From: Paludibacteraceae bacterium
GTDB taxonomy: Bacteria; Bacteroidota; Bacteroidia; Bacteroidales; Paludibacteraceae
Reading direction: 5' to 3'
Length of the DNA stretch: 32,433 bases
NCBI GenBank assembly: GCA_017959385.1
Contig: JAGDAS010000060.1
Coordinates: 1 to 32,433, forward strand
Shown: positions 2,952-31,412 of the stretch, piece after piece
How positions within the stretch are numbered: the stretch's first letter is position 1
How the letters are laid out: every line of letters begins with the position of its first letter
Program-made: the position numbers and the translations under genes
The notes under the pieces: generated by a model
Seen by the model: only the letters and a program-made list of their open reading frames with translations
What the model was told of the DNA's origin: nothing
Databases searched by the model: none

Positions 2952-3928
2952 ATGGACAAGCTTCTAAGGGTATCCACCAGGCTCATATCAATGGGTTTGT
3001 CGTCCTTAATCGCCTTGGAGAAAGGTACATACACCACCTGGTCATGGTCTATGCCGATCATCACATTGCGCTGTCCCTCCATCAATGCCTGCACCGCACC
3101 ATATCCCAACCGGCTGGCCAGGATGCGATCGAATGCCGAAGGAGAGCCACCGCGCTGGATATGTCCCAGCACCACCACGCGCACATCGTACTCCGGATGC
3201 TCGCTTTTCACCCGGTCGGCCACCGTCTGCGCACCGCCGGTCACCTCACTTTCGGCCACCAGCACAATGCTGCTGTTCTTGGTTTTGCGAAAGCCGTTCT
3301 GAATGACTTCCGTCAAAAGGTCGTCTTTAATGCTGACCTCCGGAATCACCGCCGCCTCGGCACCCGAAGCGACCGCCGCATTGAGCGCCAGGAAACCGGC
3401 GTCACGCCCCATCACTTCCACAAAGAACAACCGCTCGTGCGAGGAGGCCGTATCGCGGATCTTGTCCACCGCATCAATCACCGTATTGAGCGCCGTGTCA
3501 TAACCAATGGTGTGGTCGGTGCCGAACAGGTCGTTGTCAATGGTGCACGGAACGCCCACCACAGGAATATTGTATTCCTTGGCGAAAATCCGGGCACCGG
3601 TAAACGTACCGTCACCACCCAACACGACCAAGGCGTCAATTCCCTCTTTTTGAATCACGTCGAAAGCCTGTTTGCGGCCTTCAGCCGTGGCAAACTCCTT
3701 ACAGCGCGCCGTCTTGAGGATGGTACCGCCCTGTTGGATGATATTGCTCACATTCTGTGTCTTGAACTCCACAATCTCATCGGAGAGTAGGCCCTTATAC
3801 CCACGATAGATGGCCTTTACCTTCATTCCGTTGAAAATAGCCGCCCGCGTCACCGCCCGTACAGCGGCATTCATTCCGGGAGCGTCACCTCCCGAGGTCA
3901 ATAGACCGATTGTCTTGATTTCCGTCAT
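2948..3928 (-). CDS. pfkA: ATP-dependent 6-phosphofructokinase
   Basis: Phosphorylates fructose 6-phosphate to fructose 1,6-bisphosphate, the committed step of glycolysis, in the cytoplasm. The 326 residues match the bacterial PfkA length. Motifs: GGDAPGMNA near the N-terminus (nucleotide binding), GGDGT at about 103-107, PCTIDND with the catalytic Asp at about 128-131, MGR (substrate binding), and [15 protein letters not shown] Gly rather than Asp in GGDGT, and no Lys before TIDND, favour ATP over pyrophosphate as phosphoryl donor (established rule for the family). The ATG at 3926-3928 follows the ispH stop by one base, and the stop overlaps the uvrA start. Confidence 0.96.
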
Positions 3929-3929
3929 G

Positions 3930-4790
3930 TTATAGTCGATTTAACAACGCATTTCTCAATTCCTCCATCTGACTCAACGCCGTCGAAGTGGCTCCGCTGA
4001 TTCCCACCGACGAAACTCCTTCCAACCACTCCGTCCGCACATCCTCCACCGAAGAGACAAAATAGGTGTGCGGATTGTACCGGCGGCAGTTCTCCATCAG
4101 AATCCGTCCGTTGGAGCTTTTGGCTCCGCATACAAACAGCACCACGTCGTGCGCCTGGGCGAACTCACGCATCTGACGCATCCTTCCGGCCACCTGCCGG
4201 CAAATGGTGTCGTGGTGTTCCAACGATGTTCCCGCATGCAGGTAATCCCGTACCGCCCGGATCATGGCCTCATACCCCTCGCCCGACTTGGTCGTTTGCG
4301 AGAAAAGCACCGTATCGCGTTCAGGATCCAACCGGTCCACATCCGAAGCCTGTTCCAGCACCACCGCTTTCCCCTCGGTCTGCCCGACCAAGCCGTTCAC
4401 CTCGGCATGTCCGTACTTTCCGTAAATGGCGATCTGCACCTGCGGACGCTGCCGGTACACCTGGCTGATCCGCCGCTGCAACTGCAGCACCACCGGGCAG
4501 GTGGCGTCCAACAGCTGCAACCGGTGCGCCTCCGCTGTCCGATAGGTGGACGGTGGCTCGCCATGGGCGCGCAGCAGCACCTTGCTGTCGTGTAGTTGTG
4601 CATACGCCTCATGATCCACCACCCGGAGCCCCATCGCCGCCAAACGGGCCACCTCGGCTTCGTTGTGGACAATATCGCCCAGGCAATACAAACGTTCGCC
4701 GGCCGAGAGCGCCTGTTCAGCTTTCTGAATGGCATTCACCACTCCGAAACAAAAACCGGCATGCGGATCTATTTCTATTTGCAGCGGCAT
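3930..4790 (-). CDS. ispH: 4-hydroxy-3-methylbut-2-enyl diphosphate reductase
   Basis: Last enzyme of the MEP isoprenoid pathway; reduces HMBPP to IPP and DMAPP using a [4Fe-4S] cluster. With the start at 4788-4790 the protein is 286 aa, beginning MPLQIEID. The three cluster cysteines are C14 (GFCFGV), C98 (DATCPVV) and C197 (DTICRQ). H42, H76, H128 and the catalytic Glu (E130 in GHAEVNG) are present. An ATG nine codons upstream (4817) is also open. The inner start is preferred because family members begin only a few residues before the IEID...GFCFGV block. It overlaps cmk by 16 nt. It supplies precursors for the UppS product encoded at 18.6 kb. Confidence 0.95.
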
Positions 4791-5458
4791 GCTTTTACGT
4801 AAGCTTGATACATCCATTCATTCTGCTCCTCCAGCGTCATGTGGCCGTTGTCGAGCAACAATGCGTCATCGGCGCGGCGCAGCGGACTGTCGGCCCGGTG
4901 TTCGTCCATATCGTCCCGCTGGCGCACATTGGCCAGCACCTCCTCAAGCGACACCTGCCGTCCGGCCGAGCGGAGTTCATCGTAGCGCCTTTGCGCCCGT
5001 ACGGTGGCATCGGCCGTGACAAACACCTTCAAACGGGCATCCGGAAAGACCACCGTGCCGATGTCACGGCCGTCCATCACCACTCCGCCGCTGGCACCCA
5101 TCGCCCGCTGCCAGCGTACCAAATGACGCCTTACAAAGGGCAGTGCACTCACCCGGCTCACCTGCGACGACACCTGCATACTCCGGATTTCCGGTTCCAC
5201 CACCTCGCCGTTCAGGCGGCAGCGTCCCTGCGGATCGAAATCGACCGTCAGATCCGGCAAAGCCGCCTCCAGACGGGTCTGATCCACCTCGCCGTCCCGT
5301 ATCCATCCCTGACGCATTGCGTACAAGGTCACAGAACGATACATGGCTCCCGTATCAATATAGGTATATCCGATACGCTTGGCCAGTGCCTTGGCCATGG
5401 TGCTTTTTCCACACGAGGAATAACCGTCAACCGCTATGGTGATCCGATCTGTATTCAT
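4775..5458 (-). CDS. cmk: Cytidylate kinase
   Basis: Phosphorylates CMP and dCMP to the diphosphates in the cytoplasm. The 227 residues fit the family. Walker A GYSSCGKST lies at residues 12-20, followed by the YIDTGAMYR substrate-binding motif, and GxVVMDGRDIGTVVFPDA, diagnostic of Cmk, is in the middle. The ATG at 5456-5458 shares one base with the porQ stop (TAATG), pointing to translational coupling. The porQ-cmk neighbourhood is, to my knowledge, common in Bacteroidota. Confidence 0.96.
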   Translation of the reverse strand: MNTDRITIAVDGYSSCGKSTMAKALAKRIGYTYIDTGAMYRSVTLYAMRQGWIRDGEVDQTRLEAALPDLTVDFDPQGRCRLNGEVVEPEIRSMQVSSQVSRVSALPFVRRHLVRWQRAMGASGGVVMDGRDIGTVVFPDARLKVFVTADATVRAQRRYDELRSAGRQVSLEEVLANVRQRDDMDEHRADSPLRRADDALLLDNGHMTLEEQNEWMYQAYVKACRCK

Positions 5459-12839: not shown

Positions 12840-14321
12840 ATGAAAAAGTTACTTTTTTCTCTGCTTGCAGCCGCCGCATTGGTCGCCTGCAGCAACCAGA
12901 GCAGTGGTGAGTTAGTCGGCGTACAGGGCGAGGCTTGGAAAGAGCCGAATCCGTACGGCATGGTTTACATCAAGCCGGGTTCCTTCACCATGGGAGCCAA
13001 CGACCAAGATGCAAACTGGGCTGCTTCCACACAAGCCAAAGTGGTCTCCATTGACGCTTTCTGGATGGATGAGACGGAAATCACCAACCGGGAGTACAAG
13101 CAGTTTGTATTCTGGGTACGTGACTCCATCGTTCGTGAAAAACTTGTCCGCATCGACGGCGAAGACTCCAAGTACGCCATCCGCGACAAGAAGACCGGTG
13201 AAGTGCAATACAAGAAGGGCGGACGCCCCAACGATGCCGACCGCGACGACATCGAGAAGTTGATCAAACTCAACTGGGACCAGCCCATTCCTTGGAACAA
13301 GCAGGAAACAGAAGAAGAGGCCAAAGTAATCGACTCCATGTTCTACACCGATGACGACGCACTCTCCTACGCCCGCGAGTTGAACGGTCAGATGTTGAAC
13401 TACCAGTACCGCTGGATCGACTACAATCAGGCAGCCGCCAAGCGCAACAAGTTCAACCACAACAAGGCCGGTTACAACAAGCCCGACCTCTCCAAGTTGG
13501 GTCATGGCAAGGACAGCGCCGACCTGTTGGTTCAAAAAGACACTTCCTGGATTGATGAGAACGGCGAGATCGTCAACAAAACCAAATATGTTGAGCTCCG
13601 CACCCGCCGCGACTTCATCTCCTCGCGTATTATTAATGTATATCCCGATACACTTTGCTGGATCCGCGATTTTACCTATGCCTACAACGAACCGTACATG
13701 CGCATGTATTTCGCCCACGACGGTTACGGTGACTACCCGGTAGTCGGTGTAAGCTGGGAACAGGCTTCCGCCTTCTGCTACTGGCGTACCAACCTGCTCA
13801 ACAACGCACAGATCCGCATGGGTCAGAAGGTGGTTCAAGACTACCGCCTGCCGACCGAATCGGAGTGGGAATATGCCGCCCGCAGCGGACGTCAGTTGTC
13901 TATGTATCCTTGGGGCAGCACCTACATCCGTACAGCAAGAGGATGCTTCCTGGCCAACTTCAAACCGATGCACGGCAACTACTCGGTTGACGGTTTCATG
14001 ATCGCCGCCAAAGTAGGTTCCTTCCCGCCCAACGACTATGGTTTGTACGACATGGCCGGCAACGTAGCCGAATGGACCTCGTCCGCATTCCACGAATCCA
14101 ACTACAGCTTCGTAAGCGACCTGAACCCCAGCTACAACTACAATGCCAAGGCGGTTGATCCCGAGATCATGCGCCGCAAGGTAATCCGTGGCGGTTCCTG
14201 GAAGGATATAGGTTACTACCTGCAGTGCGCCACGCGTACCTACGAATATCAGACGGAGACCCGTTCCTACATCGGTTTCCGCTGCGTACGTAGCGTCATC
14301 GGTGCCAACTACATGAACTAA
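12840..14321 (+). CDS. porK: Type IX secretion ring lipoprotein PorK/GldK
   Basis: An outer-membrane lipoprotein that forms, with PorN, the large periplasmic ring of the T9SS. The 493 residues begin with a lipoprotein signal, MKKLLFSLLAAAALVAC, with the lipidated Cys at 17. The mature protein carries a formylglycine-generating-enzyme-like (sulfatase-modifying) fold split by a charged insertion at about 120-260. Fold motifs: MVYIKPGSFTMGA, DETEITNREYKQF, GVSWEQASAFCYW, RLPTESEWEYAARSG, YDMAGNVAEWT, VIRGGSWKD and GFRCVRS. The role is structural, not enzymatic, by knowledge of the family. porL follows after a 53-nt AT-rich spacer with no terminator. Confidence 0.96.
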   Translation: MKKLLFSLLAAAALVACSNQSSGELVGVQGEAWKEPNPYGMVYIKPGSFTMGANDQDANWAASTQAKVVSIDAFWMDETEITNREYKQFVFWVRDSIVREKLVRIDGEDSKYAIRDKKTGEVQYKKGGRPNDADRDDIEKLIKLNWDQPIPWNKQETEEEAKVIDSMFYTDDDALSYARELNGQMLNYQYRWIDYNQAAAKRNKFNHNKAGYNKPDLSKLGHGKDSADLLVQKDTSWIDENGEIVNKTKYVELRTRRDFISSRIINVYPDTLCWIRDFTYAYNEPYMRMYFAHDGYGDYPVVGVSWEQASAFCYWRTNLLNNAQIRMGQKVVQDYRLPTESEWEYAARSGRQLSMYPWGSTYIRTARGCFLANFKPMHGNYSVDGFMIAAKVGSFPPNDYGLYDMAGNVAEWTSSAFHESNYSFVSDLNPSYNYNAKAVDPEIMRRKVIRGGSWKDIGYYLQCATRTYEYQTETRSYIGFRCVRSVIGANYMN

Positions 14322-14374
14322 GCAAATGCAAGAGAATCAAATATTATTGAAACAAATTAATTAAATCAAAAAAA

Positions 14375-15193
14375 ATGGCAAGTTTTCTAGAGAGCCCGGG
14401 ATTTAAGAAAATGACGGGTATGGCCTATGGCTTTGGTGCATCTGTTGTAATTATCGGTGCGTTGTTCAAGATTCAGCACTATCCAGGTGCAAGTGTGATG
14501 CTTATGATTGGTATGTTTATTGAGGCCATTCTGTTTGCATTGTCCGCAGTTGAAAAACCGCACAAGAACTACGAGTGGGAGTTGGTATTCCCGCAATTGG
14601 ACGGCGGTGAGGCTGCTCCGGTTAAATCCGAAGGTTCCGCTGCCAAGGCCGGCAACACGATCGACGACATCGCTAAGAGCGGTTCTCTGACCGCCAGCGA
14701 CGCTCAGAGACTGAATGAAGGTATCAAGCGTCTGAGCGAAAGCGCCAACCAGATTGCTGATGTAACGGCTGCCGTTTCGGCTTCTTCCAACTACGCCAGA
14801 AGCATGAACGCCGCTTCCGACTCCATCAGCGCATTTGCCGCCACCCAGGCCAATCTGAAGACCTCGTCCGACTCCCTGTTCGCCTCCTACAAGTCGGTAG
14901 CCGAGAGCATGAGCGCTGTAGCCAGCGACGCCGAAGGCTATATGAAGGAGATGCAGGGCATCACGAAGAACCTGTCTTCGATCAACGCCGGTTACGAAAT
15001 GCAGGTGAAGAGCCTCGCATCGCAGGCTGAGATGATCAACGGTGTCAACGAGAACCTGAACAAGATGCAGTCCTCGATCAACGACGCCGCTGCCGAAGCG
15101 ACCGAATTCAAGAGCCAAATGTCGAAGCTCTCGCAACAGATCAGCAGCTTGTCCGGCATCTATGGCAATATGTTGAATGCATTCAAGGCATAA
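14375..15193 (+). CDS. porL: Type IX secretion motor protein PorL/GldL
   Basis: Inner-membrane stator that with PorM forms the proton-driven motor of the T9SS and gliding machinery. Of 272 residues, two membrane helices lie at about 16-34 and 40-60. Key residues of the family are visible: K32, H35 and Y36 in FKIQHYPGA between the helices, and E50 and E60 in the second helix, the acidic residues associated with proton transfer. Residues 80-272 are a Ser/Ala/Asn-rich, helical cytoplasmic domain with many heptad-like stretches (NLNKMQSSINDAAAEATEF). Operon position between porK and porM is the canonical one. Confidence 0.96.
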   Translation: MASFLESPGFKKMTGMAYGFGASVVIIGALFKIQHYPGASVMLMIGMFIEAILFALSAVEKPHKNYEWELVFPQLDGGEAAPVKSEGSAAKAGNTIDDIAKSGSLTASDAQRLNEGIKRLSESANQIADVTAAVSASSNYARSMNAASDSISAFAATQANLKTSSDSLFASYKSVAESMSAVASDAEGYMKEMQGITKNLSSINAGYEMQVKSLASQAEMINGVNENLNKMQSSINDAAAEATEFKSQMSKLSQQISSLSGIYGNMLNAFKA

Positions 15194-15234
15194 TAAACTT
15201 CGTTCAAAACCAATTATTAATTAACTGAACAAGT

Positions 15235-16848
15235 ATGGGTGCAACAAATTGCCCGGAGACCCCGCGGCAGAAAATGATTAGCATGATGTACTTGGTGTAC
15301 ACGGCCCTATTGGCATTGAACGTGTCCACCGACGTACTGAACGGCTTCACCGTTGTTCAAAAGAGCTTGAGCCAGTCCATTGAGACGACGACCAAGAAGA
15401 ATGCTTCTTTGATCGCCTCCTTGGAAAGCATGAAGAGCATGAACGCGACGAAGATCGGTCCCTGGCTGGATAAGGCCATGTTGGTAAGAGAACGCTCGCA
15501 GGCGTTGATCGACCAAGTTGAAGATATGAAGTACCGTATCATCTCGACTGCTGATGGTGTTTCGGTTGAAGACATCAAGAAAGCGGAGGAGCAGGACGGT
15601 GAGTACAAAATTCAGAAACGAGACAACCTGGACGTTCCCGCCCAAGTTGCTTTGAACACGGCTGAGATCAAGGATGCGTACTATGGTCAATACTTGAAGG
15701 ACAGTATCGACGCCTACGCCGCTTATGTATCTCAGATTGTTTCCGACGACGAAGCGCTGACGAACACCATTCAGAAGAACTTCGACACGTCCGACCAGCC
15801 TAATCCGCAAGAACCGGACCAGCCGGTGCCCTGGTTGCACCGTACGTTCGACCACATGCCGGTGGTAGCGGTTATGACGCTGTTGACCAAGGTGGAGCAG
15901 GATATCCGCAACACCGAAGCCGACGTGATCAGCCACATCATCAGTTTGGTGGACGCAGGCGACTTCCGTGTGAACAAGATTTCGGCCGAAGTTATTCCGG
16001 ACGCTTCCTACGTAACCCGTGGTGGCAAGTACCGTGCACGTATCATCCTGGCTGCCGTCGACTCGACGCAAAAGCCTGAGATCATCGTTAACGGCAAACC
16101 GTTGGAGAAAGGCGAGGAAGTATATACCGTAGCCTGCGGCAGCACCGGTAAATTCCCTGTAAAGGGTGAGATCAAGCTGCTCAAGCCGGACGGAACGACC
16201 GCCGACTATCCTTTCGAAAGCGAGTATATCGTAGGTGAGCCGACCGCTATTATCTCGGCCGACATGATGAACGTGTTCTATGCTGGTATTGACAACCCGG
16301 TCAGCATCTCTGTTCCCGGTGTGGCTGCCGCCAACATCAACGCGACATCGACCAACGGTACGCTGGTAAAAACGAGCAAAGGATGGTCCATCAAGCCGAT
16401 CAAGGTAGGTCAACCCTGTAACATCAGCGTATCGGCCAAGATGGATGACGGCAAGGTACAAGCCATCGGTGGCAAACCCTTCCGTGTAAAGGCACTGCCT
16501 CCTCCAATGGCTTACATCGAATACCAACAGGATGGTGTACCCTCCAAGTACAAGGGTGGCAAGGGCTTCTCGAAAGCTTATCTGGTAGCCGCCAAGGGCA
16601 TCAAGGCCGAGTTGGACGATGCTGATTTGGATGTTAAGTATCAAGTATTGAGCTTCGACCTCAACTACAACGACTCCATGGGTAACACCTTGGTTAAGAC
16701 TTCCAAGTCCACCAACTTTACCGACGACCAGCGCAACATTATGCGTGGCATGGCCAAGGGCAAACGATTCTTCATTTCGCAGATTCGTGCAAAAGGTCCC
16801 GATGGCATCGAGCGCGTATTGCCGCCTATAGAAGTAATTGTAAACTAA
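15235..16848 (+). CDS. porM: Type IX secretion motor protein PorM/GldM
   Basis: Spans the inner membrane once and reaches through the periplasm to the PorK/PorN ring, transmitting motion from the PorL/M motor. The 537 residues begin MGATNCPETPRQKMISMMYLVYT, the conserved GldM N-terminus (NCPETPRQKMI), with one membrane helix at about 15-33. The periplasmic part has a helical first domain followed by beta-rich domains (GKYRARIILAAVD, ISVPGVAAANINATS, RVKALPPPMAYI). The length is normal. It follows porL by 41 nt, and porN begins 12 nt after its stop. Confidence 0.96.
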   Translation: MGATNCPETPRQKMISMMYLVYTALLALNVSTDVLNGFTVVQKSLSQSIETTTKKNASLIASLESMKSMNATKIGPWLDKAMLVRERSQALIDQVEDMKYRIISTADGVSVEDIKKAEEQDGEYKIQKRDNLDVPAQVALNTAEIKDAYYGQYLKDSIDAYAAYVSQIVSDDEALTNTIQKNFDTSDQPNPQEPDQPVPWLHRTFDHMPVVAVMTLLTKVEQDIRNTEADVISHIISLVDAGDFRVNKISAEVIPDASYVTRGGKYRARIILAAVDSTQKPEIIVNGKPLEKGEEVYTVACGSTGKFPVKGEIKLLKPDGTTADYPFESEYIVGEPTAIISADMMNVFYAGIDNPVSISVPGVAAANINATSTNGTLVKTSKGWSIKPIKVGQPCNISVSAKMDDGKVQAIGGKPFRVKALPPPMAYIEYQQDGVPSKYKGGKGFSKAYLVAAKGIKAELDDADLDVKYQVLSFDLNYNDSMGNTLVKTSKSTNFTDDQRNIMRGMAKGKRFFISQIRAKGPDGIERVLPPIEVIVN

Positions 16849-16860
16849 AATTCCAATGCT

Positions 16861-17745
16861 ATGAAGACGTATTATCGGAGTTTGATTTTCGGACTACTGT
16901 CGCTGTTGGCTGTACCGGCCATGGCGCAAGACGAGGACTATTCGTTCTTCGGAGAAGACGGAGAGATAGCCGCCTCCAACCTGCCGACCAGCATTCCCCT
17001 GGACGAGCGGAAGCCTATCGAGTATAACAACCCGAGAGCAGACGACATCATCTGGCAAAAGGTGATCTATCGTGTGATTGACCTTCGCGAGAAGATCAAC
17101 TACCCCTTGTATTTCCCTGAAGAAGCCGGCGATAATCGTCAAAGTTTGTTCACAACCATCTTCCGGTTGTTCGAGGAAGGCAAGATCAAATGCTACAACT
17201 ACTTGGACAACAAGGAGATTTTTACGGAAGACAACCGTTTGGACTTCAACGAATTTGTAGAATCCTGCAAAATTCTGGTAACCGTCAAGACGGACTCCGT
17301 AACGGGTGACACGATCAGCACCGAAATTATGGAGAGTGACATACCCAACCGCGAGGTTATGAAATACTACCTCAAGGAAGTATGGTACTTTGACAAGCAC
17401 AACTCCATCTTCTCCGTTCGTTTGATCGCCATCTGCCCGATTTGGTACGAGAATGACTACGAACTCGGTTTGAAAAAACGTCCCTTGTTCTGGACGACCT
17501 TCGACGGACTGCGTCCCTATCTGGCCCGTCAAGAGGCTTTGATCACCGACCGCAACAACGGTGCGCGTGAAACGGTGGACGACCTGTTCATCAAACGCCG
17601 CTTTGGCAGCTACATCTTCAAGGAATCCTCCACGAAGAACCGCAACTTGTTGGAATACAACAACACAGCCGCCGAAATGCACAAAGAACAGGAGCGTATC
17701 AAGACCGAAATCGTGAACTTTGAGCAGGATTTGTGGGAATATTGA
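16861..17745 (+). CDS. porN: Type IX secretion ring protein PorN/GldN
   Basis: Periplasmic partner of PorK in the T9SS ring. The 294 residues start with a cleavable signal peptide ending VPAMAQ (about 23), then a region with the family blocks ADDIIWQKVIYRVIDLREKINYPLY, IFTEDNRLD, VWYFDKHNSIFSVRLIAICP, GLKKRPLFWTTFDGLRPYLARQEA, DDLFIKRRFGSYIFKESS, ending in a helical tail rich in Glu (about 270-294). It is the last gene of the operon; the terminator follows 20 nt after the stop. Confidence 0.95.
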   Translation: MKTYYRSLIFGLLSLLAVPAMAQDEDYSFFGEDGEIAASNLPTSIPLDERKPIEYNNPRADDIIWQKVIYRVIDLREKINYPLYFPEEAGDNRQSLFTTIFRLFEEGKIKCYNYLDNKEIFTEDNRLDFNEFVESCKILVTVKTDSVTGDTISTEIMESDIPNREVMKYYLKEVWYFDKHNSIFSVRLIAICPIWYENDYELGLKKRPLFWTTFDGLRPYLARQEALITDRNNGARETVDDLFIKRRFGSYIFKESSTKNRNLLEYNNTAAEMHKEQERIKTEIVNFEQDLWEY

Positions 17746-23141: not shown

Positions 23142-23966
23142 ATGCTCACAGACGGCACCATAGGGGTGTTTGATTCCGGATATGGCGGACTGACCATATT
23201 GGAACATTTTCAGGCATTGCTGCCCAGGTACGATTACATCTATCTGGGCGACAATGCCCGAACGCCTTATGGCAACCGCTCGTTCGACGTGGTGTATGAA
23301 TTCACCCGCGAATCGGTAGAGCGTTTGTTTGAGATGGGCTGCAATCTGGTGATTTTGGCCTGCAACACGGCCTCGGCCAAAGCACTCCGCACCATCCAGC
23401 AACGCGACCTTCCCGGATGGGGAGCGGACAAACGTGTACTCGGCATTATCCGTCCGACAGCCGAAGCCATCGGTACGCTGACACGCAACGGTCATGTCGG
23501 TTTATTGGCGACCGAAGGCACCATCCAGTCGGAATCCTACCCGCTTGAAATCCGCAAAATCTATCCTGAACTGCAAGTCAGCGGACAGGCCTGCCCGATG
23601 TGGGTGCCGCTGGTGGAAAACGGTGAGGCGGAGAGTCCGGGCACGGATTTCTTTGTCAAACAATACCTGGACCGGCTGTTGCAGCAGGATCCGGACATTG
23701 ACACCGTAGTGTTGGCTTGTACCCATTACCCCCTGCTGGCGCACAAAATCCGCAAGTACCTGCCCAAGCACATCCAAATTCTTGCGCAGGGGCCGCTGAT
23801 TGCCTCCAGCCTGCAGAATTATTTGCAACGCCACCCCGATTTGGACCGTCACCTGACCCAAGGCGGCACCACCCGATTTTACACGACCGAAAATGTGGAC
23901 CGGTTCACCCAATCCGCCTCCATTTTCTTAAAAAAGACAATTAAAACAGAACACATCACCCTCTAA
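23142..23966 (+). CDS. murI: Glutamate racemase
   Basis: Interconverts L- and D-glutamate for peptidoglycan. The 274 residues have the usual length. The catalytic cysteines are C74 in ILACNTAS and C193 in VLACTHYP, with the start motif IGVFDSGYGGLTIL and GDNARTPYG. The ATG is at 23142, just after the stop of the second skp-like gene. The acyltransferase gene follows after 6 nt with no promoter or terminator in the gap. Confidence 0.96.
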   Translation: MLTDGTIGVFDSGYGGLTILEHFQALLPRYDYIYLGDNARTPYGNRSFDVVYEFTRESVERLFEMGCNLVILACNTASAKALRTIQQRDLPGWGADKRVLGIIRPTAEAIGTLTRNGHVGLLATEGTIQSESYPLEIRKIYPELQVSGQACPMWVPLVENGEAESPGTDFFVKQYLDRLLQQDPDIDTVVLACTHYPLLAHKIRKYLPKHIQILAQGPLIASSLQNYLQRHPDLDRHLTQGGTTRFYTTENVDRFTQSASIFLKKTIKTEHITL

Positions 23967-23972
23967 TTCACC

Positions 23973-24866
23973 ATGGAAGACCTCAATCACCACCATTGGG
24001 ACGGAGACACCGACGGCACCGGATGGATGCAGCGCAGCCTGCTGTGGATGACACAGGGGCCGGGACTCTGGTTGTTCTACGGCATCGTAGCCGTGGTGGT
24101 GTGCTTCTATATCCTGCTGCGTCCACGCGACACAAGAGCCATCTACCGGCTGCACCGCCGGCTGGGCCGCAACCGGTTGCATGCAGCCGTGGCGGTCTAT
24201 GGCAATTTCTTCCAGTTCGGATGCGTCATCATGGACCGTTTCTCCGCTTACGGCGGGAGGAAATTCGACATCCGCTTCGATGAACGCGAAGCCTACACCC
24301 GGCTGCTGCAGAACGAAAGCGGAATCGTACAGTTGTCGTCGCATGTGGGCAACTACGAAATGGCCGGCTATTCACTGCCCTATGAATCGAAGGAAATGTA
24401 CGCCCTGGTTTATTCAGGTGAAACGGAAACCGTTATGGAGAACCGCCGGCGCATCTTCCAGCGGCATCACATCCGGATGGTCCCTGTCAAGGAGGACCTG
24501 TCGCACCTGTTCATCCTCAACGATGCACTGGAGCACGGAAACACGGCCAGCCTGCCCGCCGACCGCGTGTTCGGTTCGCCCAAATATTTCAGCATCCCCT
24601 TCCTGGGCCGCGATGCCCGTTTCCCGAAAGGGCCTTTCGCTCTGGCCGTCAAACGCCAGGTACCTGTCGTCGCGATGTTTGTGTTGAAACAGCCGCACCT
24701 GCGCTACAGCATCCACTACCGCGAGCTGCGTCTCAACGCCGATGAAAGCCTGTTGCCGGCCGCCGTACAAATGCGTCGGTTGGCGGAAAAATACACCGTC
24801 GAATTGGAAAAAATCGTACGCGCTTACCCGTCACAATGGTTCAACTTTTTTGATTTCTGGATGTGA
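23973..24866 (+). CDS. LpxL/HtrB-like lysophospholipid acyltransferase, first gene of the polyene-type cluster
   Basis: A 297-residue membrane-associated acyltransferase. The N-terminal WDGDTDGTGWMQR block resembles the WxGxTxGT start I recall for acyltransferases of Bacteroidota aryl-polyene clusters. Hydrophobic residues (about 30-50, LWLFYGIVAVVVCFYILL) give a membrane anchor. The motif SSHVGNYEMAG supplies the H-x4-E acyltransferase dyad, followed by ADRVFG, KGPFALAVKRQVPVVAMFVLK and a C-terminal PSQWFNFFDFW. In such clusters it is expected to attach the polyene acyl group to a lipid or glycolipid. It begins 6 nt after murI and ends TGA overlapping the GTG start of the next gene. Confidence 0.88.
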   Translation: MEDLNHHHWDGDTDGTGWMQRSLLWMTQGPGLWLFYGIVAVVVCFYILLRPRDTRAIYRLHRRLGRNRLHAAVAVYGNFFQFGCVIMDRFSAYGGRKFDIRFDEREAYTRLLQNESGIVQLSSHVGNYEMAGYSLPYESKEMYALVYSGETETVMENRRRIFQRHHIRMVPVKEDLSHLFILNDALEHGNTASLPADRVFGSPKYFSIPFLGRDARFPKGPFALAVKRQVPVVAMFVLKQPHLRYSIHYRELRLNADESLLPAAVQMRRLAEKYTVELEKIVRAYPSQWFNFFDFWM

Positions 24867-25288
24867 AGCCCCTACCTGACATATGCCAACTGCTGCCGCA
24901 GCAGAGGCCGTTCCATCTTATCGACAGATTGGTGAAGGTGGATGCGGATTCAGCCCTGTCCGAACTTACGGTCAAGGGTAACACCCCGTTTGTTGGAAAC
25001 GGACTGCTTCAGGCATCGGGATTGGTAGAGAATATCGCCCAAACCTGCGCCGCACACATCGGCTACCTTCATTGGCCGGATATTCGGATCGGCCTCATCG
25101 GTGCCGTTCCCTCACTGCATATCCTGCGGCTTCCGCGAATCGGGGAGACCGTCAACACCGCCATACAGGTGGAATCGCAGGCTTGGGGCTTGAGTGCCGT
25201 GAAGGCAACCGTCCGTGCGGGAGAGGAAATCCTCGCCCAAGGCAGCATCAAAATCGCATTAACCGGTCAAAACCTACCCGCCCGATGA
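24863..25288 (+). CDS. Hotdog-fold dehydratase-like protein with the Glu half-site (ApeP-like)
   Basis: A 141-residue hotdog-fold protein resembling 3-hydroxyacyl-ACP dehydratases. The N-terminal segment QLLPQQRPFHLIDRLVKVD is FabZ-like. By ungapped alignment to FabZ, the catalytic Glu is present (E56 in ASGLVENIAQ) but the catalytic His position is Pro with no His within ten residues (NTPFVGNGLL). It thus cannot form a complete site alone. The start is GTG at 24863, overlapping the acyltransferase stop; its stop overlaps the next start (ATGA). In known aryl-polyene systems dehydration is done by a heterodimer (ApeI:ApeP); the second hotdog gene at 30341 would be the partner. Confidence 0.8.
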   Translation: MKPLPDICQLLPQQRPFHLIDRLVKVDADSALSELTVKGNTPFVGNGLLQASGLVENIAQTCAAHIGYLHWPDIRIGLIGAVPSLHILRLPRIGETVNTAIQVESQAWGLSAVKATVRAGEEILAQGSIKIALTGQNLPAR

Positions 25289-26427
25289 AGATCGTCCGAC
25301 TATCCGACCACCTGGTCTGCCCGCTGGGGCATGACACGGAAACGACCCTGGAGGCTGTTCTGCAGGGACGTTCCGAACTGCGGCTGCACAGTGACTGGCA
25401 GCACCTGCCGGAACCGGTCTGCGCCTCCCTGTTCGAACCGGACGGAATCGCATCGGCATTTGCCGAAAACGGCCAAACCGACCAAGGTTACACCCGTTTT
25501 GAACAACTGGCCATCGCATCGGCCGCACCGGCCATCGCCCGGTCCGGCATAGATCCCGCCTCACCGCGCGTGCTTTTCGTCCTTTCCACCACCAAAGGTA
25601 ATGTGGAACTGCTGGGCGGAAACGGTGCCGGGCAATCCGAATCCGTATCGCCCGTGTGGTCGGCGGAACGTCTGGCTCGTCATTTCGGGAATCCGAACAT
25701 TCCCTTGGTTGTGTCAAACGCCTGTATTTCAGGATTATGTGCACAAATATATGCACCCCGCGCACTGCAAAGCGGCCGTTACGACCAAGCGGTCATTGTA
25801 GGAGCGGACGTACTCTCTTCCTTTATTGTATCGGGGTTCCAAAGCTTCAAGGCTCTGTCGCAGCAACCCTGCCGGCCATTTGACCGTGAGCGCAACGGGC
25901 TCAACCTGGGCGAAGGCGCCGCCACGCTTGTCATCGGGCGGGTTGAAAACGCCGATGGTGCATGGACCCTCTGCCAGGGTGCCATCCGCAACGACGCCAA
26001 TCACATTTCCGGCCCGTCGCGGACGGGCGAGGGTGCCTGCCAAGCACTGAAAGCCACCCTGGCGGGCATCTGTCCGGACGAAGCCGCCATGATCAGCGTA
26101 CACGGAACCGCCACCCTCTACAACGACGAGATGGAGGCCGTCGCCCTGCAGCGCGCCGGGCTGGACCACCTTCCGGTCAATGCCTACAAAGGGTATCTGG
26201 GACATACCCTGGGGGCCGCCGGCCTGTTGGAATCGGTACTCTCCATGCATGCGATCGACCGCGGGGTGATTCCAGCCACCCGTGGCTTTTCCGAGCCGGG
26301 GGTCAGTGTGCCGCTGCAGGTCAGCAATCAACCCCGTACAACCGACAAGAAGGCCTTTATCAAAATGCTTTCGGGCTTTGGCGGCTGCAATGCCGCACTT
26401 TACTATCGGAAAGGAGGGACGCAATGA
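25285..26427 (+). CDS. Beta-ketoacyl-ACP synthase, catalytically complete (first KS)
   Basis: A 380-residue FabF/KASII-type condensing enzyme of the thiolase fold. The triad is complete: C147 (SNACISG), H273 (HGTAT) and H307 (YLGHTLGAAG). The C-terminal block is KMLSGFGGCNAAL. It elongates ACP-bound chains by condensing malonyl-ACP. The ATG at 25285 overlaps the previous stop, and the next gene overlaps its stop by 4 nt. An upstream open frame back to 25072 is a shadow of the preceding gene. It is followed directly by a KS-like half protein, suggesting a heterodimer. The exact chain is unknown. Confidence 0.88.
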   Translation: MKIVRLSDHLVCPLGHDTETTLEAVLQGRSELRLHSDWQHLPEPVCASLFEPDGIASAFAENGQTDQGYTRFEQLAIASAAPAIARSGIDPASPRVLFVLSTTKGNVELLGGNGAGQSESVSPVWSAERLARHFGNPNIPLVVSNACISGLCAQIYAPRALQSGRYDQAVIVGADVLSSFIVSGFQSFKALSQQPCRPFDRERNGLNLGEGAATLVIGRVENADGAWTLCQGAIRNDANHISGPSRTGEGACQALKATLAGICPDEAAMISVHGTATLYNDEMEAVALQRAGLDHLPVNAYKGYLGHTLGAAGLLESVLSMHAIDRGVIPATRGFSEPGVSVPLQVSNQPRTTDKKAFIKMLSGFGGCNAALYYRKGGTQ

Positions 26428-27029
26428 GACTGCTGCAGTACATACGGGTCAACTCCGAAGGCATTTGGCTGAACGGACGGTTCTCCGCACTTCCTACCGG
26501 TGACTGGGCGGAGGCGCTCTACCGGCAGGACGGGATTCAGTATCCGAAATTCTTCAAAATGGATCATCTGTGCCGCATCGGTTGGATGGCCTCCGAACTG
26601 CTGCTGGCCGGCGAAAACGACCGGTTTGAACCACGCACGGACCGCGCCGTCATCCTCTTCAACCGATCGGGCAGCCTGTGCAACGATACACAATACCAGA
26701 CCACCATTCAGGATCCGGACAATTATTTCCCGTCGCCTGCCCTGTTTGTCTATACGCTGCCCAACATCGTCACCGGTGAGATTGCCATCCGCAACGGCTA
26801 CCGGGGCGAGACCTCCTGCTACCTGCTGCCTGATTTCGATGCCGGCATCTTGGTCGAAACCTCCCGCCAGGCCCTACAGGATCCCGGCACCCGCAGCCTG
26901 CTTACCGGCTGGGTGGAATGCGCTCCGGGGCAAAGCGACGACCTGCTCCTATGCCTGGTGGATGCGGAGACGGAAGAAAACTGGAATGAAAAAAACCTAC
27001 TACAACTCTATCGATATGGACACCTTTAA
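26424..27029 (+). CDS. Short ketosynthase-like protein without the nucleophile
   Basis: A 201-residue protein resembling the N-terminal half of a ketosynthase. The block FPSPALFVYTLPNIVTGEIAIRNGYRGE (about 102-129) matches KS text of the type NTLPNxxxGExxIRxGxxG. The Cys position of a KS falls at about D137 (ETSCYLLPDFD), so it should not condense chains. It is not evidently truncated by mutation: it starts by overlapping the first KS, ends with a stop 14 nt inside the ACP gene, and keeps a normal reading frame. I infer a KS partner or chain-length protein, like an inactive subunit; family name not certain. Confidence 0.7.
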   Translation: MRLLQYIRVNSEGIWLNGRFSALPTGDWAEALYRQDGIQYPKFFKMDHLCRIGWMASELLLAGENDRFEPRTDRAVILFNRSGSLCNDTQYQTTIQDPDNYFPSPALFVYTLPNIVTGEIAIRNGYRGETSCYLLPDFDAGILVETSRQALQDPGTRSLLTGWVECAPGQSDDLLLCLVDAETEENWNEKNLLQLYRYGHL

Positions 27030-27273
27030 GCAAGAATTGAAAGCTGAGATTATTCGTGTTTTGAACCTGGACGGCATGCAACCCGACGATATCAACGACG
27101 CCGAGCCGCTCTTCGGCGAAGGACTGGGACTGGACTCCATTGATGCGCTGGAGCTGATTGTGCTGCTGGAGAAGAACTACGGCATCAAATTGGAGAAACC
27201 GGAAGACGGGAAAGCTGTCTTCCAGTCTGTCAACGTATTGGCGGATTACATCACCCGCAACCGCAAAAAATAA
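27016..27273 (+). CDS. Acyl carrier protein of the polyene-type cluster
   Basis: An 85-residue acidic ACP with the phosphopantetheine attachment site at S41 in GEGLGLDSIDALELIVLL. It tethers the growing chain between the KS, dehydratase and reductase enzymes. ATG 27016 is preferred because it gives a normal ACP length; an ATG ten codons upstream (26986) is also open. It overlaps the previous gene by 14 nt and lies between the two KS pairs. Aryl-polyene clusters of E. coli encode two ACPs; only one is seen here, so a second may lie beyond the right edge. Confidence 0.93.
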   Translation: MDTFKQELKAEIIRVLNLDGMQPDDINDAEPLFGEGLGLDSIDALELIVLLEKNYGIKLEKPEDGKAVFQSVNVLADYITRNRKK

Positions 27274-27274
27274 G

Positions 27275-28465
27275 ATGAAGGGAACAACCGTCTGCATTAC
27301 CGGCGCCGGCATTGTATCGGCCATCGGCTTTGGCAAAGAGGAGACGCTGCAGGCGCTCCGCCAGGGCCGGAGCGGCATTGCGCCCATCCGCTACCTCGAA
27401 ACTACGCACGCGGATGAGTTTCCCAGTGGCGAAGTGAAGGCCGACACGCCCTCGCTGCGCCGTCGGCTGGGCATGCAGGACGGCAACCGGACTACCCTGC
27501 TGGGCATCCTGGCCATACAGGAGGCACTGCAACAGGCCGGTATCACCGATACCCGCACGGTCAGCCTGCTCTCCGGCACCACCGTCGGAGGCATGGAGGA
27601 AACCGAGCAACACTATGCCGAAGCGCTGAAACACCCGGGTACAACCATCAGCATCCGCACGCACCACTGTGGCGCCACCACCGATGCCATGGCCGCCTTC
27701 TTCGGCGGGTTCCGGCATACCGCCACGCTGTCAACCGCCTGTTCGTCGGCCGCCAACGCCATACTGCGCGCAGCGGAGATGATCCAGTCCGGACGGACGG
27801 ATATCTGCATCGCTGGCGGCAGCGAATGCCTGAGCAAATTCCACCTCAACGGATTCAACTCGCTGATGATTCTGGACCGCCGTCCCTGTCGGCCGTTCGA
27901 TGCCGGCCGCGCCGGACTGAACCTGGGCGAGGGTGCCGGATTCCTGGTACTGGAAAGCGAAGTCTCCGCCCGGCGGCGCAAAGCCGCCGTACTGGGCTGG
28001 CTCAACGGTTACGGCAACGCATGTGACGCCTTCCACCAAACCGCCTCGTCGCCGGAAGGCGAAGGTGCCTTCCTTGCTATGCGGCAGGCACTGGAGATGG
28101 CCGGACTGACCCCCGCCGACATTGATTACATCAACGCACACGGTACCGGCACCCCCAACAACGACGCATCCGAAAGCCGTGCGGTGCTCCGCCTGTTTGG
28201 TGGAAACTACCCGCCCATATCCTCGACCAAGGCGTTCACCGGCCATACAACCAGTGCCTCGGGGGGCATCGAAGCCGTCATCTGCCTGCTGGCGCTGCAA
28301 GAGCAGTTTCTGCCTCAAAACCTGCATTTCAGCGAACCCATGGAGGGAGGATTGCTGCCGGTTCAAGACCAACAACCGAAGCGTCCCGTCCGACATGTTC
28401 TGTGCAACGCTTTCGCCTTTGGCGGGAACGACACCTCGCTACTTCTTTCGAACCAACCCGTATGA
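27275..28465 (+). CDS. Beta-ketoacyl-ACP synthase, catalytically complete (second KS)
   Basis: A 396-residue FabF-type condensing enzyme. Triad: C156 (STACSSAANA), H289 (NAHGTGTPNND) and H324 (FTGHTTSASGG), with MKGTTVCITGAGIVSAIGFGKE at the N-terminus. Condensing role as for the first KS, probably a different chain step. The ATG is 1 nt after the ACP stop, and the stop overlaps the next KS-like gene (ATGA). The pair with the following gene matches KS/chain-length-factor organisation. Confidence 0.92.
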   Translation: MKGTTVCITGAGIVSAIGFGKEETLQALRQGRSGIAPIRYLETTHADEFPSGEVKADTPSLRRRLGMQDGNRTTLLGILAIQEALQQAGITDTRTVSLLSGTTVGGMEETEQHYAEALKHPGTTISIRTHHCGATTDAMAAFFGGFRHTATLSTACSSAANAILRAAEMIQSGRTDICIAGGSECLSKFHLNGFNSLMILDRRPCRPFDAGRAGLNLGEGAGFLVLESEVSARRRKAAVLGWLNGYGNACDAFHQTASSPEGEGAFLAMRQALEMAGLTPADIDYINAHGTGTPNNDASESRAVLRLFGGNYPPISSTKAFTGHTTSASGGIEAVICLLALQEQFLPQNLHFSEPMEGGLLPVQDQQPKRPVRHVLCNAFAFGGNDTSLLLSNQPV

Positions 28466-29490
28466 AACAACCGGTTTACATCACAGCGGCCAGCGCCATC
28501 TCCATTCAGGAACCGCTCAGCGAATCCTGGATGCAGCATCCTGTCGTACCGCAGGGCGGTGCGGCTTATGCCCGGGAGCCGGACTACACCCCCTTTGTCA
28601 AACCGCTGGAGGCCCGACGCATGGGCAAACTGCTCAAGCGCGCCACAGCCACGGCGCAGACAGTCCTGCGGCAAACGGGCATTGCCCGGCCGGAAGCCAT
28701 CCTGACAGGCACCGGACACGGTTGCGTGCAAAACACGCTGACCTTCCTCAACGATCTCTGCCAAGGCGGTGAGCAAATGCTCAAACCCACCTGTTTCATG
28801 CAGTCCACACACAACACCATCGGATCACTTACCGGCATTCAGACGGGCAGCCACGGCTACAACAGCACCTACGCCCACGGCGGAACCAGTTTTGAATGTG
28901 CCCTGATGAACGCCTGGGACCTGTTGCAGCTGGGCCGCGTTCACAATGCGCTGGTCAGCGCCCACGACGAACTGACCGACGACTACTACCCCATGCTGCA
29001 GGCATCGGGCTATGCGGACGGCCGGATGACCTGTCCGACCACAGAGGCTTCGGTTTCATGTATGCTGCAGACCGCTGCGGAAGGCCCCGTCCTGCTGCAG
29101 GGAGTGGACGTCCTCTACCGGCCTGCACCGGAGCAACTGCTACAGGCACTTGATGCGTTGCTGGAGGAAGCCGGCCTGCAACGAACGCAAGTGGACGCCC
29201 TGCTGACCGGTGCCAACGGAAGCGGCACGGACCGGGCATACGACCCGCTTACCCATGCGCTTCCCCAATGTGAGCTATTGACCTACAAACATTTGTTCGG
29301 CGAAAGTTTCAGCGCCGGCGCACTCGGATGCTATGTGGCGCAAGCCTGTCTGAGACACGACCTGCTGCCCGCCTGTCTGCGTCGTGGCGGAGAAGACCGG
29401 CAACCGGCACCCCGGCACTGGCTGGTGGCGAACTGCTTTGACGGGACGGATTATTCACTCATACTGCTTTCGAAATGTTGCGATTACTAA
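28462..29490 (+). CDS. Inactive KS homologue, probable chain-length factor
   Basis: A 342-residue thiolase-fold protein that has lost all catalytic residues. The nucleophile position is Gly141 (YAHGGTSFECA instead of a Cys-containing ACxSG), the first His motif is replaced by LLTGANGSGTD, and the second by KHLFGESFSAGAL. This matches chain-length-factor-type subunits found in aryl-polyene and type II PKS systems, where a dead KS subunit with an active KS sets product length (established concept). It overlaps the second KS by 4 nt, supporting a heterodimer. The small membrane gene overlaps its end by 16 nt. Confidence 0.82.
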   Translation: MKQPVYITAASAISIQEPLSESWMQHPVVPQGGAAYAREPDYTPFVKPLEARRMGKLLKRATATAQTVLRQTGIARPEAILTGTGHGCVQNTLTFLNDLCQGGEQMLKPTCFMQSTHNTIGSLTGIQTGSHGYNSTYAHGGTSFECALMNAWDLLQLGRVHNALVSAHDELTDDYYPMLQASGYADGRMTCPTTEASVSCMLQTAAEGPVLLQGVDVLYRPAPEQLLQALDALLEEAGLQRTQVDALLTGANGSGTDRAYDPLTHALPQCELLTYKHLFGESFSAGALGCYVAQACLRHDLLPACLRRGGEDRQPAPRHWLVANCFDGTDYSLILLSKCCDY

Positions 29491-29828
29491 CCCTTATCCT
29501 GACACAGAGCGTACTATTGGTGGCCGCCCAGTCGCTGCTGAAAGTCTCCGTACAGAAATTCGGAGCCTTCCATTGGTCGTGGAGTTGGTTCGCCACCGCA
29601 CTCACCACTTGGCAGTTCGCACTCAGCGGCGTATGCGCCTTAGCCTGCATGGCCACCTGGATGCATGTGCTCAAACACTACGAGTTCTCGCTGGCCTACC
29701 CGCTGCTGTCGGTCAGCTATATCATCGGGCTGGTGGTGGCCTGGCTGTTCTTTCACGAAGCCGTTCCGCTCACCCGCTGGATCGGTGTATTGGTTATTAT
29801 GGCGGGCGTTTATCTGGTGGTCAAATGA
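29475..29828 (+). CDS. Small EamA/SMR-like membrane protein, possible lipid flippase subunit
   Basis: A 117-residue protein with four predicted helices (about 1-22, 44-66, 70-90 and 97-116), typical of small multidrug/EamA-type carriers. The segment QSLLKVSVQKFG resembles the start of ArnE/ArnF-type flippase subunits, and a Glu precedes the last helix (FFHEAVPLTRW). With a GT2 glycosyltransferase in the same cluster, a role in moving a lipid-linked sugar is plausible but inferred. The 16-nt overlap with the upstream gene and 4-nt overlap with the LolA-like gene suggest coupled translation. Confidence 0.7.
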   Translation: MLRLLTLILTQSVLLVAAQSLLKVSVQKFGAFHWSWSWFATALTTWQFALSGVCALACMATWMHVLKHYEFSLAYPLLSVSYIIGLVVAWLFFHEAVPLTRWIGVLVIMAGVYLVVK

Positions 29829-30337
29829 AGCGTTGGTGCATGATACTCGGGTTGCTGGCCGTCGTGACGTATGCCACGGCGGGTGACACCGCTTGCCGGA
29901 AGGGATGGCAGCAGCTGCTGCTGCGCTCACGGCAAATCCACGAACTGGAGGCCGACTTTGTGCAAACCCGGACAGTCGCTGTGCTTGACCGGCCCGACGT
30001 TCAACAGGGGCACCTCAGCTTCAAGGCTCCGCATACGGTCCGCTGGAACTACGAAGGTATGGAGCAGAGCGCCACGGCCTCCCGCCTGATCACCTCGGTG
30101 GTACAAGCGACCCTGAAGGGCGACACGGTCAGCCTCAACAAGAGTTTTGCGCAGGATTGCACCCTCCATCAGAACGCCACCTGGCTGCAATTGATTCCCA
30201 AAGAACGGCGCCTGAAACCGTATATCCGGCATATCTTACTGAAAATCAACACACGGGGAGATGTCATCGAGGTGCTGGTGGAAGAAACATCCGGTGACAG
30301 CACCCACATCCGGCTCCGTAATTTAAAATGCTATTGA
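29825..30337 (+). CDS. LolA-like periplasmic lipid carrier
   Basis: A 170-residue exported protein. Signal peptide MKRWCMILGLLAVVTYATA ends near residue 19. The mature part has LolA/LolB-fold blocks: LRSRQIHELEADFVQTRTVAVLD, GHLSFKAPHTVRWNYEGM, GDTVSLNKS, WLQLIPKERRLKPYIRHILLKIN. Such outer-membrane-lipoprotein-carrier-like proteins are found in aryl-polyene clusters and are thought to move the lipid product across the periplasm. The ATG at 29825 overlaps the preceding stop. The frame is open further left to 29384, which is a shadow of the upstream genes. Confidence 0.8.
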   Translation: MKRWCMILGLLAVVTYATAGDTACRKGWQQLLLRSRQIHELEADFVQTRTVAVLDRPDVQQGHLSFKAPHTVRWNYEGMEQSATASRLITSVVQATLKGDTVSLNKSFAQDCTLHQNATWLQLIPKERRLKPYIRHILLKINTRGDVIEVLVEETSGDSTHIRLRNLKCY

Positions 30338-30340
30338 ACC

Positions 30341-30670
30341 ATGCTGAAGGACACCTTATACCATATCAAACGGTACCTTACGGAAAATGACCGTTTCGAA
30401 GCCGGCATCGTTCTGGCTTCGGACCATTGGATTCTGCAGGCTCATTTCCCGGAATATCCCGTCGTACCGGGAGCGGCGTTGGTGCAGACCGCCGCCGAAC
30501 TGACTCCGGGCGACGGCACGGTCCTCGATCTGCGCAGCGTCAAATTCCTGCAAATGGTGCGCCCGGGGGAGGAACTGCAAATCAACGGACAACGGAACAA
30601 CGGATGGTGGAAAGTAGCGTTTTTCCGGCAGGAGCAGTGTTGTTGCAAAATGGAATACACCTATGGCTGA
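30341..30670 (+). CDS. Hotdog-fold dehydratase-like protein with the His half-site (ApeI-like)
   Basis: A 109-residue FabZ-like protein. Ungapped alignment of AHFPEYPVVPGAALVQTAAE with FabZ GHFPxxPxxPGxxxxEAMAQ keeps the catalytic His (H35) but replaces the catalytic Glu with Gln (Q49). It therefore carries the half-site missing from the hotdog gene at 24863, which keeps the Glu and lacks the His. In FabZ dimers the active site is built from residues of both subunits, so a heterodimer could form a single complete site. It begins 3 nt after the LolA-like stop, and its end overlaps the glycosyltransferase start by 8 nt. Confidence 0.8.
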   Translation: MLKDTLYHIKRYLTENDRFEAGIVLASDHWILQAHFPEYPVVPGAALVQTAAELTPGDGTVLDLRSVKFLQMVRPGEELQINGQRNNGWWKVAFFRQEQCCCKMEYTYG

Positions 30671-31412
30671 AGCACTGAACAACATACGGGTTTGTGTGCT
30701 GATCCCCACCTACAACAATCAGGGCACATTGGGACAGGTCATACAGGACGTACTGCAGGCCGGATGGCCGCTGTGGGTTATTGATGACGGGAGCACGGAC
30801 GGAACCGGCCGGCTGCTTGCGTCCCGGCAGGACCGGGTGCATGTGATCCGCTACCAACCCAACCGCGGCAAGGCCTATGCGTTGGAACAGGGTTTCAAAG
30901 CCGCCTACGAAGTCGGATACACCCATGCCGTCACCATGGATGCCGACGGACAGCACTTGGTGCAGGACCTGCCGGCGTTGGCCGCATTCGCAACCGCCCA
31001 TCCGGACACGGTCGTGGTGGGGGCGCGCATCCAGGAGGATAAAAAGGGGCAAAAGGCCGGCAGTGCCTTTGCCAACCGCTTCTCCAACTTTTGGTTCCAT
31101 GTGCAGACAGCTATCCCGCTCCAGGATACCCAATGCGGTCTGCGTCTCTATCCGCTGCGTGCCGTACAAGGCATACGGGTGCTGGGACGCCGCTACGAAG
31201 GCGAACTGGAGCTGTTGGTACGACTGGCCTGGCGCGGCTGGGACGAGCAGTCGCTACCTGTGCATGTTTACTACCCCCCTGCGGAGGAACGGGTTTCGCA
31301 CTTCCGCCCCTTCACCGATTTTGCACGCATCAGTGTACTCAATACGCTATTGACCCTGCTGGCCCTCCTCTACGGACTGCCGGCGCGGCTTATACACCGG
31401 ATCGGAAAATGA
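30663..31412 (+). CDS. Family 2 glycosyltransferase
   Basis: A 249-residue inverting glycosyltransferase (GT2 fold). Motifs: CVLIPTYNN at the N-terminus, IDDGSTDGTG, the DxD-type TMDADGQH (metal/nucleotide-sugar binding), and VVVGARIQ and DTQCGLRLYP for acceptor/donor binding. A C-terminal hydrophobic segment (about 220-245, ISVLNTLLTLLALLYGL) would attach it to the inner membrane. It could transfer a sugar from an NDP- or polyprenyl-linked donor onto the polyene lipid; donor and acceptor cannot be told. It overlaps both neighbours by a few bases. Confidence 0.9.
   Translation: MAEALNNIRVCVLIPTYNNQGTLGQVIQDVLQAGWPLWVIDDGSTDGTGRLLASRQDRVHVIRYQPNRGKAYALEQGFKAAYEVGYTHAVTMDADGQHLVQDLPALAAFATAHPDTVVVGARIQEDKKGQKAGSAFANRFSNFWFHVQTAIPLQDTQCGLRLYPLRAVQGIRVLGRRYEGELELLVRLAWRGWDEQSLPVHVYYPPAEERVSHFRPFTDFARISVLNTLLTLLALLYGLPARLIHRIGK

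Follow-up and report, generated by a model that had tools for sequence, protein, structure and literature searches.

We find that two hotdog-fold genes of a Paludibacteraceae bacterium, at positions 24863 and 30341, encode an ApeI:ApeP pair of the ordinary kind within an aryl-polyene (APE)/flexirubin-type cluster of Bacteroidales, an arrangement that is already known. The genes lie in a stretch of 32,433 nucleotides (hereafter, the window), which is the whole of contig JAGDAS010000060.1 (C44) in a 1.66-Mb genome that is 97% complete (GenBank assembly GCA_017959385.1). The nearest named loci related to this genome come from Bacteroidales. The two products, ApeP-like (24863) and ApeI-like (30341), very probably constitute an ApeI:ApeP-type heterodimeric dehydratase, with heterodimer formation by these two particular proteins being inferred. 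This reading is based on their residues, conservation in linked pairs, their fold, and their matches to the two chains of a solved complex, 6QSR.

Catalytic residues and their conservation

FabZ has a catalytic His and a catalytic Glu in one chain. Neither window protein has this combination; each has one of the two. The 24863 protein retains the catalytic Glu, E56, in the motif GLVENIAQTCA (codon 25028..25030, + strand), and E56 is invariant in A1 and A3. It has no His: residues N46 to V55 (24998..25027, +) form a shortened loop, with six residues fewer than the GHFPxxPxxPG loop of FabZ. The 30341 protein, conversely, retains the catalytic His, H35, in the motif AHFPEYPVVPG (codon 30443..30445, +), and carries Gln, Q49, at the Glu position of FabZ (codon 30485..30487, +). 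Both H35 and Q49 fall within AHFPEYPVVPGAALVQTAAEL.

These residues were compared across 60 related genomes and 80 named loci, a set that takes in one proteobacterial pair (E. coli CFT073). Together they provided 204 distinct sequences of both types, which were aligned with seven FabZ controls. Glu is present in all 114 ApeP-type homologues (leaving aside one fragmentary entry), and His is present in all 89 of the ApeI type, while the FabZ controls keep both residues (7/7). The stretch separating the His column from the Glu spans 8 residues in 114/114 ApeP sequences, versus 14 in 89/89 ApeI sequences and in the FabZ controls. The Glu position in ApeI is occupied by Gln in 65 of 89 sequences, by Glu in 5, by Asp in 2, and by other residues (N, G, K, R, etc.) in 17. 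The residue in the His column of ApeP (His in 7/114) is unusable, as two alignments differ there; we relied instead on the length of the loop and on the fact that no His is conserved. As judged from these alignments, the Glu/His pattern is far beyond chance, and the position of the missing partner drifts freely. Chance drift of two pseudo-enzymes is ruled out by the invariant Glu and the invariant His.

An earlier note on this DNA, made from its sequence alone, had assigned E56, H35, and Q49 as above, and these assignments stand. It had also placed a Pro at the His position of the 24863 protein. This part does not hold: Pro42 came from an ungapped alignment, and comparison with relatives and FabZ shows a loss of six residues from the His loop. 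The His position in ApeP is thus deleted or unconserved rather than replaced by Pro.

A separate feature of ApeI-type proteins is an exchange of residues along the central helix. The residue four positions after the Glu position is Glu in 75 of 89 ApeI sequences and Gln in all ApeP (114/114) and FabZ (7/7) sequences. Thus, the Glu...Gln (i, i+4) pattern of FabZ is swapped to Gln...Glu. The window ApeI follows this pattern, with E53 (codon 30497..30499, +) one helical turn past Q49, where FabZ and ApeP carry Gln.

Linkage, gene fusion, and a second pair

The two hotdog genes lie on one strand in one cluster, ~5.05 kb apart (5 kb in the earlier note). Where ApeI and ApeP genes are linked on the same strand, the combination of an ApeI His with an ApeP Glu occurs in 73/73 pairs. 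A complete second site (an ApeP His with an ApeI Glu or Asp) occurs in 0/73. The latter count is not itself significant, because independence alone predicts fewer than one complete second site; the 73/73 is significant. The His-only/Glu-only split proposed for the window is therefore conserved in homologous pairs. Furthermore, of the 64 ApeP loci that are followed by 8 kb or more of sequence, 54 carry ApeI.

A genome of the same genus carries both domains in a single open reading frame (ORF) of 301 amino acids (locus L021, G004:C45, 1090-1992, - strand), with ApeP first, followed by ApeI, and ~13 residues between the matched domains. This fusion ORF comes from one assembly, without read confirmation, so a one-base error is possible. 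The ApeP and ApeI genes of a sister genome (L022) are 3 bases apart. A second pair occurs in the window genome itself, on contig C112 (L061; ApeP 3726-4151, ApeI 4562-4963), and shows the same division into a Glu-only and a His-only protein. This pair lies in an APE-like cluster, beside ORFs that resemble ketosynthase (KS), acyl carrier protein (ACP), thioesterase, MMPL, ketoreductase (KR), LolA, and oxidoreductase genes.

Predicted structures and the 6QSR complex

Each protein was modeled as a single chain from an alignment of 46 sequences, with a mean predicted local distance difference test score (pLDDT) of 94.0 for the 24863 protein and 93.5 for the 30341 protein. Counted along the central helix, both E56 and Q49 come sixth in their own model, in support of their being equivalent positions. 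The 24863 model is matched best by 6qsr_B (Z 20.2, root-mean-square deviation 1.7 Å, 134 residues aligned), and the 30341 model by 6qsr_A (Z 16.4, 1.5 Å, 104 aligned), followed by 3esi (15.3) and FabZ (14.4). Profile searches lead to the same chains (ApeI to 6qsr_A, 3.9e-11; ApeP to 6qsr_B, 8.9e-6). The 6QSR entry is titled “The Dehydratase Heterocomplex ApeI:P from Xenorhabdus doucetiae”, and this complex was reportedly described by Grammbitter et al. in 2019. The fit to the known heterocomplex that the note had proposed is thus upheld, with each model best matching its own chain of 6QSR.

The premise that such active sites are built from both subunits also has published support. In FabA, His70 comes from one subunit and Asp84 from the other (PMC516016). 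The His and the Asp of a FabA active site belong to different subunits, and the FabA and FabZ catalytic dyads share a conserved structure (PMC516016, PMC2698920). ApeI/ApeP has itself been described as a heterodimeric dehydratase that has just one active site (PMC8041823). Given a published single-site heterodimer and published trans sites in FabA, the concept is not new. For the window proteins, the proposal of a heterodimer in which one site is complete and the other empty gains support from the 6QSR chain matches, the 73/73 linked pairs, the fusion ORF, and this literature (PMC8041823).

Several observations weigh against this reading. FabZ chains (Z 19.7) are formally tied with 6qsr_B as matches for ApeP, being less than one Z unit apart, and identity to 6QSR is only ~15%. 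The models are of separate chains, and the interface of the window pair is inferred. The window ApeI retains a Glu, E53, one helical turn onward. In Proteobacteria, 6QSR included, ApeI has both His and Asp: this FabA-like pair is found in all eight proteobacterial ApeI examined (comparison sequences from plasmid-borne clusters) and in 6QSR chain A, so that ApeI could conceivably form homodimers there whose sites are complete. Lastly, the KR and further genes found upstream in related clusters are absent from the window cluster, whose activity must therefore rely on genes elsewhere.

These observations bear on an alternative in which ApeI works by itself as a homodimeric dehydratase, with E53 or another acid taking the role of Glu, and the hotdog protein ApeP has a separate, non-catalytic or regulatory part. 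The prevalence of Glu at the +4 position of ApeI and the His+Asp pair of Proteobacteria are in its favor, as is 3ESI, an ApeI-like structure deposited as four identical chains. However, the Glu of ApeP is invariant although ApeP has no His, an invariance explained mainly by this Glu serving the His of another chain. The solved complex is ApeI:ApeP, and a natural fusion ORF exists. We consider a self-sufficient ApeI improbable.

The earlier note had held that homologues carrying both residues would count against a split site. Such homologues do exist for ApeI (His+Asp in the eight proteobacterial sequences and 6QSR_A, and His+Glu in 5/89). ApeP has no conserved His; the shortened loop with Glu recurs in eight proteobacterial ApeP and in 6QSR_B. 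The single-site picture survives an ApeI with His and an acid because ApeP nowhere has a conserved His. We offer one modest new observation here: the split is cleaner in Bacteroidota, where ApeI is usually without the second acid of proteobacterial ApeI. Bacteroidota ApeI might thus have lost its second acid (usually to Gln), with the dead site decaying on both subunits until the two became fully dependent on each other, whereas proteobacterial ApeI could still complete sites by pairing with itself. We regard this scenario as evenly poised between right and wrong.

Family assignment

A Pfam search gave no family for the 24863 protein, and only a sub-threshold FabA-like match for the 30341 protein. 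The NCBIfam FabZ model matched both weakly (24863: 7.1e-5, 22.8 bits; 30341: 6e-5, 23.0 bits), versus a curated cut-off of 113. From these weak but consistent profile matches and from their fold, both are FabZ/FabA-type hotdog proteins. The dehydratases of Bacteroidales pigment clusters are barely recognized by family databases.

One or both proteins might instead not be dehydratases, with ApeP acting as a hotdog isomerase, a thioesterase, or a chain-length gate, and dehydration performed by a housekeeping LpxC-FabZ-type protein. The poor family matches would fit this, and a complete FabZ domain (His and Glu) is indeed encoded elsewhere in the window genome, on contig C156. Yet the catalytic residues are invariant in both families, the cluster context points to a dehydratase, and an ApeI/ApeP-type enzyme has been used as the dehydratase in an APE assay (PMC8041823). 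We consider a non-dehydratase role for either protein highly improbable.

Gene context

The ApeI:ApeP-type pair is embedded in an APE-type type II polyketide synthase (PKS) context (Table 1). KS, chain-length factor (CLF)-like, ACP, LolA, family 2 glycosyltransferase (GT2)-like, and exporter-like neighbors surround both genes. The KS, CLF-like, ACP, LolA, and exporter neighbors match those of APE clusters (E. coli reference). An MMPL-like exporter is last in the window cluster and is cut by the contig end. ORFs similar in size to that of the 201-amino acid protein, which lies between KS and ACP, occupy the same site in two related clusters (L064, 183 amino acids; L125, 210 amino acids).

Table 1. 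Genes of the APE/flexirubin-type cluster in the window.
Position	Strand	Feature	Evidence
23973..24866	+	ApeD-like acyltransferase, lipid A/lysophospholipid type	PF03279 1.5e-12
24863..25288	+	ApeP-like hotdog subunit, 141 aa (amino acids), GTG start, Glu half of dehydratase site	
25285..26427	+	beta-ketoacyl-ACP synthase	PF00109/PF02801
26424..27029	+	201-aa protein	No Pfam or NCBIfam match
27016..27273	+	acyl carrier protein	PF00550 2.5e-9; NF006617 above cut-off
27275..28465	+	beta-ketoacyl-ACP synthase (elongating KS)	PF00109/PF02801; NF006618 4.7e-95, below its cut-off
28462..29490	+	short ketosynthase-like protein, probable chain-length factor	PF13723 2.9e-18
29475..29828	+	small EamA/ArnF-type membrane protein	NF002816 3.5e-11, below cut-off
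29825..30337	+	LolA-like periplasmic carrier, nearest flexirubin LolA2	PF03548 3.2e-10; NF053544 3.5e-19, below its cut-off
30341..30670	+	ApeI-like hotdog subunit, 109 aa, His half of dehydratase site	
30663..31412	+	glycosyltransferase-2-like protein	ORF and sequence; 8-base overlap with ApeI stop; order as in L064

A fuller related layout is found at L064, where the upstream ORFs resemble an ammonia-lyase, a KS, a methyltransferase, and an ACP (as read from the sequence). In the window, murI (23142-23973) stands at the site of these upstream genes, directly 5′ of the acyltransferase. This raises the alternative that the pair is decaying in the window genome and has lost its function. Besides the absence of the usual upstream part, the window ApeI is shorter than its relatives, with four residues absent in the central helix region. 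Set against this, both ORFs are intact, the required residues are kept, and the predicted folds are confident. KR, ACP, and ammonia-lyase genes are also carried by other contigs of the window genome (ammonia-lyase on C133). We regard decay as improbable.

Elsewhere in the window, a row of genes at 12840-17745 resembles the gldK-gldN set of gliding/type IX secretion, as judged from the sequence.

Proposed mechanism

We propose that ApeP and ApeI are the 3-hydroxyacyl-ACP dehydratase subunits of an aryl polyene/flexirubin-type type II PKS. The two would assemble as a heterodimeric hotdog, in which His35 of ApeI would face Glu56 of ApeP across the dimer interface, creating one working FabZ-like site in trans. 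This site would dehydrate the beta-hydroxyacyl-ACP from each elongation round, so that a conjugated polyene is built. The mirror-image site, where the shortened ApeP loop would meet Gln49 of ApeI, would be empty, and either subunit alone is predicted to be inactive. Such an enzyme is a natural example of how a symmetric homodimer can become a heterodimer with one site per dimer, via the complementary loss of residues.

Comparison with known systems

The window proteins share with FabZ the hotdog fold, the His/Glu catalytic residues, and the same helix position. They differ in that FabZ forms homo-oligomers whose every chain bears both residues, whereas the window proteins have one each.

The cluster resembles the flexirubin-type clusters of Bacteroidota. 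Its LolA matches flexirubin LolA2, and L064 represents a fuller related locus. The window, however, contains just a portion of such a cluster, and dialkylresorcinol genes are not seen in it.

E. coli CFT073 likewise has a two-gene dehydratase in its APE cluster, ApeI (c1196) and ApeP (c1188). These are the two dehydratases of that cluster, in which deletion of most core genes abolishes the pigment (PMC8253772). Unlike in the window, E. coli ApeI carries His and Asp and adjoins an acyl-ACP synthetase. The order and spacing of the genes are also different, with ApeI 5′ of ApeP at ~6.7 kb.

A close counterpart is the X. doucetiae ApeI:ApeP complex (6QSR). It also comprises two hotdogs, with a GHFP His loop in ApeI, and a Glu and a shortened loop in ApeP, and its fold and cluster type are those of the window pair. 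It differs in having Asp where the window ApeI has Gln. Knowledge of the enzyme itself is unchanged by the window pair. What the pair does show is that ApeI:ApeP, an arrangement whose structure was solved from a proteobacterium, extends across the pigment clusters of Bacteroidales.

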